64,000 bases of DNA. It comes from Tistrella mobilis (GTDB lineage: Bacteria; Pseudomonadota; Alphaproteobacteria; Tistrellales; Tistrellaceae). Both the position numbers and the translations under genes were made by a program. Each line of letters opens with the position of its first letter. Position 1 is the stretch's first letter. The notes under the pieces are model-generated. The model was not told where the DNA came from, ran no database searches, and saw only the letters and a list, made by a program, of their open reading frames with translations. Of this stretch, positions 13,208-21,896 are shown piece by piece. The stretch spans positions 1 to 64,000 of the forward strand of contig NZ_JBBIAB010000010.1 in NCBI RefSeq assembly GCF_039634785.1. The letters run 5' to 3'.

Positions 13208-13378
13208 GATGCCGCCGTCATCCGGCCATGAAAGGGTATCGGCGCCGGACGCAAGAGCGGCGCCCGCAGGGGCGCCGTCATCAGATCGGATCTGGAAACA
13301 TCGGGCGGGGTCATCCGGACATCATGCCGCCACGCCGCATCCTGGGGCAACGGCTTCGACATAGGATGGCCCGCCGGA

Positions 13379-17165: not shown

Positions 17166-17349
17166 GCGGGTTCCGTTGGCCAGAGGATCGAGGGGATGGG
17201 GAGGATGCGTGCGGGCCGACTTTAGGCACAGCCCGGCCATGGTGCAACCAAATGCCCCGTCATGCAGAGCGGATCACGACATCGTCACGGGATCGGGGCC
17301 GGAAACCGGTCCATGATCCCGGGATCCCCTGCGAGCGGAGCGGGTGACG

Positions 17350-18585
17350 ATGCCACAGGATCCTCGGCTTGAAGCCCTGCAGAACGGGCTGCTGCACAGG
17401 ATAGAGAGCTATGTGCCGGTGCGCGGACGGCCGGCACCGCCGCGCCCGGCCCTGATCGAGGCGTTCCGGCGCTATCCTCGCCACCTCTTTTTGCCGCGCT
17501 ACCGGCCGGCGGATCAGCCTGAGGGACCGGCACGCGCTCCGGGTGACGCCGACTTTCCAGAGGGCGCCTATCACGACCGCCCGCTCTGTTACGTCGACGA
17601 GCACGGTATCTCCCTGCCCGCCTCCTGCTCCGAGCCGGGCTTCATTTTCCATCTGGCCGAGTTGCTGGACGTCCGGCCCGGTCATCGGGTGCTGGAGATC
17701 GGCTGCGGCACCGGCTGGCTGCTCGCGATCCTCGCTCATGCCGCCGGGCGGAATGGAAAGGTGGTGGGCGTGGAGATCAACCCCGCTCTGCAGGCCCTGG
17801 CCGCCCGCAACCTTGCCGCGGCGGGAGCAACCAATGCGATCGCCGTGGCAGGTGACGGCCTGACCGCTGCCGGCCCGGGACCCTTCGACCGGATGATCAT
17901 GACCGCCTCGGCCTGGCAGCTGCCGACCAGGATTCTAAGCCTGCTCACGGAAGACGGGCTTGCCGTCCTTCCAATTCGTAACAAAGGCTTGTCCGAAGAG
18001 GTTCACGTTCTGGAGCGGCGCGGCCCGGCGCTGGTGTCGCGCCTGACACGCCTCTGCCGTTTCGTGCCGCTGACCGGCCGCGATGGCGCGGATGAAGATC
18101 TTCTGATGCCTCGTCTGGCCACCGATCCCGACATCGCCCGGCTTGGCGAAACCGGGCAGCCACGATCGCTCGACTTCGGCCAACCGACACCGGATCAGAT
18201 GATGCCGCCGGCGCTCGCCTTCACCGCCTGGATGTCAAAGCTGGAGCCGCGCTTCCGCGCCTGGCGGCTCGGCTTGGGCCACGGGTCGCCATCCCTGTTC
18301 GGTGATCCGGAAAGGCATGGTTTCGGTCTGGTGGACAGGGCCGCCGGGTCCGCCGCCCTCTGGCGCGCAGGCCAGGTGATCGCCTATGGCGACGAAAGCG
18401 CGCGCGATCTGCTTTTCAGTCATCTGGCGCGATGGACGGCACAAGGCGAGCCGACGGGTTATGCTTTCGGCCTCGGCATCACTGCCGCCCGAGGGGCATC
18501 TCCGGTCTCACACCACTCTTATCGCGAGCGCCGGGGCCCGCTCGATTTCTGGTGGTGGCTGCGCCCGCCCACTGAACGGTTGTAG
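17350..18585 (+). CDS. PCMT-like SAM-dependent methyltransferase with a long C-terminal extension
   Basis: 411-residue protein. Residues about 35-215 form a protein-L-isoaspartate methyltransferase-like Rossmann domain with SAM motif VLEIGCGTGW (114-123) and the following acidic strand VGVEIN. About 195 further residues form a second domain ending in a Trp-rich segment that I do not recognise. Classical PCMT enzymes stop near 210 residues, so this is not a plain Pcm. PCMT-like domains also modify peptides in natural-product pathways, but no precursor gene is visible here. The ATG at 17350 has a GGAG site 9 nt upstream; a GTG at 17344 is too close to it. Substrate unknown. Confidence 0.7.
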   Translation: MPQDPRLEALQNGLLHRIESYVPVRGRPAPPRPALIEAFRRYPRHLFLPRYRPADQPEGPARAPGDADFPEGAYHDRPLCYVDEHGISLPASCSEPGFIFHLAELLDVRPGHRVLEIGCGTGWLLAILAHAAGRNGKVVGVEINPALQALAARNLAAAGATNAIAVAGDGLTAAGPGPFDRMIMTASAWQLPTRILSLLTEDGLAVLPIRNKGLSEEVHVLERRGPALVSRLTRLCRFVPLTGRDGADEDLLMPRLATDPDIARLGETGQPRSLDFGQPTPDQMMPPALAFTAWMSKLEPRFRAWRLGLGHGSPSLFGDPERHGFGLVDRAAGSAALWRAGQVIAYGDESARDLLFSHLARWTAQGEPTGYAFGLGITAARGASPVSHHSYRERRGPLDFWWWLRPPTERL

Positions 18586-20550: not shown

Positions 20551-20568
20551 CCTGCTGATACACCGGAC

Positions 20569-20604
20569 AAAACGGCGACGCTCCACATGGTGCGGCGCCG
20601 TTTT
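20569..20604 (+). terminator. Bidirectional-looking terminator after the purine permease
   Basis: AAAACGGCG at 20569-20577 pairs with CGCCGTTTT at 20596-20604, giving a 9-bp stem with A-tract and T-tract arms. It lies 18 nt after the permease stop and separates it from the downstream RNA locus. Confidence 0.7.
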
Positions 20605-20707
20605 CATATGTCGGAACGCGAATGTGCACCGCACCATCGCACGGATCAGCACGGTTCGAAGCTTGCCCGATTTCCCCCGTTTTTGTAATGACCTGACGAT
20701 TTTTGCG

Positions 20708-20734
20708 TTTTTTGCACCGCACACATGCAAAAAA
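20708..20734. promoter_or_regulatory. Perfect 9-bp inverted repeat upstream of the candidate RNA
   Basis: TTTTTTGCA (20708-20716) and TGCAAAAAA (20726-20734) are perfect inverted arms around a 9-nt GC-rich spacer. It lies directly upstream of the proposed promoter, so it could be a protein-binding site. It has no adjoining T-tract that would make it a terminator. Confidence 0.45.
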
Positions 20735-20737
20735 CTG

Positions 20738-20766
20738 GTGACGGACGTCACATTCCTGCGTACTCT
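20738..20766 (+). promoter_or_regulatory. Candidate sigma-70 promoter of the non-coding RNA
   Basis: GTGACG (20738-20743) as -35 and TACTCT (20761-20766) as -10 are 17 nt apart and would start transcription near 20774. The -35 element is one arm of a perfect palindrome, GTGACG-GA-CGTCAC (20738-20751), so a repressor could cover it. Confidence 0.45.
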
Positions 20767-20773
20767 CCCCTTG

Positions 20774-21088
20774 CCGACGTAAAGGGCACCGGCAGACAGA
20801 ACCGGCCCAACGTCTAGGGAGGGTGTAACCGGCGCAAGCCGTAGGGATCGACCGCAAGAGCATCCGGTGGCCACGATGCCACCACGCCGGGTTGAACGCG
20901 CGGCGCCAGGAGCCACGGCGATCCCAGGAGAGTAAAGAGTTCAGGCGTCCCGGCAGCAACGATCGGGCGCCCACAAAACACCAATGATAACAATCAGCTA
21001 CGCCGATCGGTTGCCGTCGAATCGGACGTGGTGATCAGCACCAAGCGGAATCTTCGATCAAGGCCGTGCTTGCACGGTCTTTTTTTTT
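20774..21088 (+). ncRNA. Candidate structured non-coding RNA of about 315 nt, family unknown
   Basis: No credible protein is encoded here, yet the stretch is bounded by a promoter and a strong terminator. It contains ordered pairings: a hairpin (20776-20780 with 20810-20814, inner GGG/CCC and CCGG/CCGG); a GCAA tetraloop hairpin (20830-20841); a long-range stem 20844-20850 with 20919-20925 enclosing a GGTGGC/GCCACC hairpin (20866-20883); a bulged stem 20944-20952 with 20964-20971; and a TGGTG/CACCA hairpin (21029-21043). It is not tmRNA, RNase P RNA or SRP RNA: their conserved cores are absent. It also does not match riboswitch cores I know. It is independent of the flanking genes, because the permease is terminated upstream and araC is antisense. 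Function unknown. Confidence 0.55.
21061..21088 (+). terminator. Strong Rho-independent terminator of the non-coding RNA
   Basis: GGCCGTG (21062-21068) pairs with CACGGTC (21073-21079) around the loop CTTG and is followed by nine T residues (21080-21088). The T-tract is only on the plus strand, so the terminator serves the plus-strand RNA and not the convergent araC-type gene. Confidence 0.85.
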
Positions 21089-21107
21089 GCGCAGCTACGG
21101 TCATCCT

Positions 21108-21896
21108 TCAGTCGCCCTCGGACCGGCTGTCGCGCGCCGCATATCGCTGGGGCGTGGTGCCCAGCATCCGCCGGAACATGGCGGTGAAGGCGCTTGGGCT
21201 GTCATAGCCGAGGCGGGCTGCAACCATGGCCACCGGCATGCCCTGCGACAGCAGCGAGACCGCCTCGACCAGGCGTGCCTGCTGGCGCCAGCGCAGGAAG
21301 CCCATGCCGGTCTCACGCGCGAAGGCGCGGGCGAGCGTCCGGGTGCTGGCACCGGCGCTTTCCGCCAGCCGTTCGAAGCCCGCATCTTCCCCCGGATCAT
21401 CCAGAACCCGCCGGCACAGGCGTTGAAGCCGCGGATCGCGCGGCCAGGGCAGATGCAACGGCAGGGTGCGCGGCGCCTGCAATTCATGAAGGATCAGGGC
21501 CGCCACCGCCTCGCCGCGACTGCCATCTGCATAGTCCACGGGCTCGGCCACGGCCGCCAGGATCAGCTCGCGCAGCAGGGTCGTGACCTCGATCACGGTA
21601 CAGGCATCGGGCAGCCGCTTCGCCGGCTCGGGCGCTACATAGACCGTGCGCATCGACACCGGCCCGATCATCCGCACCGAATGCTCCACCCCGGGCGGGA
21701 CCCACAGCCCGCGCATCGGCGGCACCAGCCAGATGCCGTCGGCCGCGGTGATCTCCATAACCCCGGCCGCGGCATGGAGCAACTGGCCGCGCGGGTGGAT
21801 ATGCGGCGGAATGACCGTCCCCGGCGTCAGTTCCTTGGCCATCGCCGCCACCGGCCGGGTGACGTGCTGATAGTCGGCCGCATCGGTGCTGCGCAT
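21108..21896 (-). CDS. AraC-family regulator with N-terminal cupin
   Basis: 262-residue regulator. Residues about 15-100 form a small cupin (TPGTVIPPHIHPRGQLL holds the His cluster) and residues about 160-255 hold the two helix-turn-helices of the AraC domain, ending in the typical GYDSPSAFTAMFRRMLGTTP. This is the AraC_binding/YesN-type architecture that senses a small molecule. The ATG at 21896 is chosen because upstream codons would overlap the divergent gene and lack family similarity. It is divergent from an MFS exporter, with 154 nt between, which is probably its target. Confidence 0.9.
   Translation of the reverse strand: MRSTDAADYQHVTRPVAAMAKELTPGTVIPPHIHPRGQLLHAAAGVMEITAADGIWLVPPMRGLWVPPGVEHSVRMIGPVSMRTVYVAPEPAKRLPDACTVIEVTTLLRELILAAVAEPVDYADGSRGEAVAALILHELQAPRTLPLHLPWPRDPRLQRLCRRVLDDPGEDAGFERLAESAGASTRTLARAFARETGMGFLRWRQQARLVEAVSLLSQGMPVAMVAARLGYDSPSAFTAMFRRMLGTTPQRYAARDSRSEGD

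Follow-up and report, generated by a model that had tools for sequence, protein, structure and literature searches.

A probable structured noncoding RNA gene, conserved in Tistrella and without an Rfam family, and a candidate regulatory small RNA

Does the space between a permease gene and a regulator gene of Tistrella mobilis hold an RNA gene of its own, and, if so, what kind of RNA would it encode? The question arises at positions 20774-21088 (+) of the window, the whole 64,000-nt stretch of DNA analysed here, where an initial annotation had proposed a free-standing structured RNA with its own promoter and terminator. Tistrella is a natural-product-producing genus, the products including didemnins (PMC9964501), and its branch is isolated, the order being represented by a single genus in our genome set; a literature search joining Tistrella, small RNAs and RNA-seq found no paper. 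Our analysis indicates that the segment is very probably a real conserved noncoding RNA gene. The best overall reading is that of a free-standing, structured RNA gene encoding a regulatory trans-acting sRNA and restricted, as far as testable, to Tistrella, to which we give a rough probability of 0.6.

The unit is compact (about 315 nt) and intergenic. Its left neighbour, a Xan_ur_permease gene, was said to be terminated before the RNA, and a terminator scan indeed places a terminator of its own at about 20587-20601. The right neighbour, an AraC-type regulator gene, is convergent with the RNA, i.e. antisense as described, and its reading frame lies about 20 nt past the RNA end. The strong plus-strand terminator with nine T residues was likewise recovered by the scan. 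The unit and its upstream region comprise the following features.

20681-20773, + strand: conserved stretch ahead of the RNA, taken as promoter and control region; identity to the sister species 95.7%, as against 71.5% just upstream
20707-20735, no strand assigned: inverted repeat GTTTTTTGCA/TGCAAAAAAC with perfect 10-bp arms and a 9-nt spacer, nearly conserved in the sister species
20738-20743 and 20761-20766, + strand: possible -35 (GTGACG) and possible -10 (TACTCT); sigma-70 scan negative
20738-20751, no strand assigned: palindrome GTGACG-NN-CGTCAC with perfect 6-bp arms, covering the putative -35
20774-21088, + strand: structured noncoding RNA of about 315 nt, from conservation, fold and substitution pattern
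21060-21088, + strand: intrinsic terminator with a 9-bp hairpin (stem 21060-21081) and T9 at 21080-21088, from terminator scan and folding

The case for a gene at this place begins with its conservation, which was measured against a second Tistrella species (G001, the sister species). The RNA is 93.3% identical between the two and the upstream region 95.7%, as compared to 71.5% in the spacer 20551-20680 and 63.6% in the stretch past the terminator (21089-21110). Plain 315-base windows fail to set the RNA apart, since coding DNA is equally conserved, and it is noncoding and synonymous sites that make the informative comparison. Over its whole length the permease gene shows 94.0% identity, at its fourfold sites 81.0%, and with these sites as the neutral yardstick (81%) the 294 identical positions among the 315 of the RNA have a probability of 4e-10. 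Conservation starts about 90 bases 5' of the presumed RNA start and ends just past the terminator; judged from these identities, selection ends sharply at the predicted edges of the unit. A conserved block bounded at the promoter region and at the terminator matches the prediction for an independent transcription unit, and we infer from the sequence that transcription starts near 20774 and stops at the T9 ending at 21088.

Comparison with the relatives turned up two features elsewhere in the window. The segment 17179-18539, which overlaps a 413-codon frame (17344-18585, + strand), is 79% identical to the sister species as against about 92% in its flanks, and an alignment gap at 13224-13235 indicates that about 1.1 kb is absent in the window strain relative to T. 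mobilis G058 (or was inserted in G058).

The predicted fold is more stable than all of 100 dinucleotide shuffles, with a z of -2.5 on the + strand and -2.9 in the sister species, whereas the - strand gives a weaker -1.7. A consensus fold computed from three Tistrella sequences contains at least six confident helices, in agreement with the number of ordered helices first proposed, as well as the GNRA tetraloop hairpin (P2) and the long-range 7-bp stem closing a domain (GGGAUCG/CGAUCCC, 20844-20850 with 20919-20925, part of P3) that had been described there. From 5' to 3', all on the + strand, its parts are as follows.

20776-20814, + strand: 5' hairpin P1/P1a (GACGU/ACGUC around GGGC..CCGG), most pairs at a probability near 1 in the consensus fold
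20817-20828, + strand: GGGAGGGUGUAA stretch, no confident pairing
20829-20842, + strand: P2 hairpin with a GNRA loop, GCAA here and GAGA in the sister species
20844-20925, + strand: central domain closed by P3 (GGGAUCG-CCG/CGG-CGAUCCC), pair probability at least 0.92 in the consensus fold
20858-20865 with 20909-20914 (P4), 20866-20883 (P4a) and 20885-20905 (P4b), + strand: inner three-way junction of the central domain, from the consensus fold
20944-20971, + strand: P5 hairpin, which holds the compensatory pair 20945-20970
20973-20996, + strand: A-rich linker, not confidently paired, where the relatives have ARN-like triplets; a possible Hfq contact
20998-21059, + strand: 3' domain, almost without variation and lacking any one confident fold; a candidate target-pairing region

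The substitutions among the three sequences respect this fold for the most part. Variable columns are rarer in pairs (5 of 134 paired as against 23 of 187 unpaired positions; Fisher P=0.008), a contrast biased in favour of the structure because the latter was predicted from the same sequences. In P5 the pair 20945-20970 shows a double compensatory change from G-C to A-U. One U-A to U-G exchange in P3 and one U-G to U-A exchange in P4b keep their pairing, and both remain paired only if the RNA is read from the + strand. The change of the P2 loop from GCAA to GAGA retains the GNRA type, and the window strain has lost one end pair of P2. The check for covarying pairs in relatives gave weak evidence: there is a single compensatory pair among three sequences, and a shuffle control was not exceeded (177 of 500). 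Covariation is minimal because just two Tistrella species enter the comparison.

The RNA is present as a single copy in each of the three Tistrella genomes (T. mobilis strains and the second species), all of which share its neighbourhood and gene order, and the copy of T. mobilis KA081020-065 (NC_017956.1) is identical to that of G058. Outside the genus, blastn with the RNA core and the 3' part found it absent from 382 further alphaproteobacterial genomes, and blastn of the RNA against plasmids found no copy. A covariance model of the core recovered only Tistrella among 385 alphaproteobacterial genomes, although this model was built on three near-identical sequences, and strongly diverged homologs could escape all of these searches. 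An exact 18-mer of the RNA occurred only in Tistrella in GTDB (84,980 species, one genome per species) and was absent from IMG/VR viral contigs. Two weak matches were rejected: one (G208) sits opposite a 576-codon reading frame, and the other (G353) has E=0.014 among 385 genomes and no sequence resemblance by eye.

Rfam at gathering thresholds reported only tRNAs in the window and nothing at the RNA unit, where the initial annotation had likewise found no match by eye to tmRNA, RNase P RNA, SRP RNA or the common riboswitch cores. At permissive thresholds the spacer gave sub-threshold, mainly terminator-like chance matches. The best of these, SorY (RF02651; 21.2 bits against a gathering score of 111) and Atu_C4 (RF02499; 20.7 bits against 80), cover the terminator region only; as they consist mainly of the terminator hairpin and U-tail, they are not evidence of homology. 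By these searches the RNA matches no described family: it is new to Rfam, and its general kind is known. The proposal of a free-standing, lineage-specific RNA is supported by the bounded conserved block, purifying selection, the retained GNRA loop and one compensatory pair.

How the RNA would be transcribed is suggested by the region upstream. Of the 17-nt-spaced promoter reported there, the spacing and both elements are present, but its consensus quality is poor: GTGACG-17-TACTCT (20738-20766) agrees with the sigma-70 consensus at 7 of 12 positions, and a sigma-70 scan upstream of the RNA called no promoter, this candidate lying under the scan threshold. We therefore assign a promoter to this region because of its 95.7% conservation, not because of a consensus match. 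The GTGACG-NN-CGTCAC palindrome differs from the sister species only in its 2-nt centre, to which both changes are confined; a genome-wide search for further copies as the sign of a regulon found none. Taken with the inverted repeat, it suggests that transcription of the RNA is regulated. Alternatively, since this palindrome is followed by T6 on the - strand, it could be a weak terminator of antisense transcription instead.

Most likely, the RNA regulates other genes. Hfq-associated trans-acting sRNAs are well known from Proteobacteria, e.g. GcvB and, in alphaproteobacteria, AbcR. Like these, the Tistrella RNA is intergenic, with a putative promoter region of its own, an intrinsic terminator with a long U-tail, an unstructured A-rich linker and a narrow phylogenetic range. 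It differs in its length (about 315 nt, longer than most Hfq sRNAs) and in its large structured central domain, and no sequence relationship to them was detected. Hfq is encoded in the genome, and the nine U residues of the terminator (21080-21088) exceed the seven or more that characterize Hfq-dependent sRNAs. The A-richness of the linker is marginal (P 0.01-0.04), and its ARN triplets reach P 0.04-0.05 in two relatives and 0.45, i.e. not above chance, in the window strain. Both the linker and the U9 tail agree with an sRNA that pairs with its targets with the help of Hfq, and we prefer this mechanism at about even odds. In this scenario, the conserved promoter region would drive transcription from near 20774 to the T9 terminator at 21088, under a regulation that the palindromes upstream would impose. 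The GC-rich 5' and central domains would serve as a stabilising scaffold, the linker and U-tail as Hfq contacts, and pairing with target mRNAs would fall either to the 3' domain (20998-21059), which hardly varies and is loosely folded, or to the GGGAGGGUGUAA stretch at 20817-20828.

The most serious alternative, albeit a distinctly less probable one, is an RNA that acts by binding protein, whether as regulator or as scaffold, for example as a sponge for CsrA or some other RNA-binding protein; here the multi-helix central domain rather than base-pairing would be active. The compact, well-defined central domain with its three-way junction would suit such a role, and the genome contains a csrA gene. 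The sponge RNAs CsrB and RsmZ carry many GGA motifs in loops, and the Tistrella RNA resembles them in being intergenic, in having several hairpins and in occurring in a genome that encodes CsrA. Unlike in CsrB/RsmZ, however, GGA, ANGGA and AGGA are no commoner than in Markov shuffles (GGA 6 observed vs 6.7 expected), which leaves the CsrA sponge unsupported, and the lack of an Rfam match also counts against a protein-binding RNA. Somewhat less probable still is a new Tistrellales RNA class with a functional central domain (as protein scaffold or for binding RNA polymerase or the ribosome) that is not a conventional base-pairing sRNA. OLE and the raiA motif RNA, large structured RNAs whose role is unclear, share with the Tistrella RNA a multi-helix structure and the lack of a gene product; the Tistrella RNA differs in being genus-restricted and in having no Rfam match.

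It is rather unlikely that the locus is instead a cis-acting antisense element, at which the AraC-type mRNA would read through and pair with the RNA, thereby controlling the regulator's message. The convergent arrangement is common to all three Tistrella genomes, and terminator-like sites on the - strand of the scanned stretch lie only inside or upstream of the RNA (21009-20991 and 20751-20738), as read-through would have it. However, the RNA stops short of the AraC-type reading frame by the 20 nt or so noted above, and simple pairing offers no explanation for substitutions that avoid the predicted + strand pairs.

A small-protein or dual-function mRNA is improbable. A search of the RNA of the three genomes for a conserved reading frame supported no conserved peptide, in line with the original remark that no protein reading is conserved here. 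The sole frame of at least eight codons that shares its start and stop in all three has 16 codons (20984-21034). It lacks a ribosome-binding site, and each of the three substitutions within it alters an amino acid (S to H, Y to C); longer frames are broken by indels of 4 nt and 1 nt between genomes. The frameshifting indels and exclusively nonsynonymous changes argue against a conserved peptide.

A divergent housekeeping RNA (6S, RNase P or tmRNA), in whose range the size and structure do fall, can practically be dismissed, as Rfam gives no match at the unit, and the genome has its RNase P and tmRNA elsewhere, both scoring above the Rfam thresholds, together with a probable 6S slightly under its threshold, so that the unit is not a missing housekeeping RNA. 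The probable 6S RNA (G000:C40:21290-21497; L008) scores 45.2 bits as against the Rfam cut-off of 46.4.

In summary, a regulatory, probably trans-acting sRNA accounts best for this locus. Its conservation, its considerable size and a promoter that appears to be regulated make the Tistrella RNA a clear candidate regulator specific to the genus, and it represents an entry wanting in Rfam.
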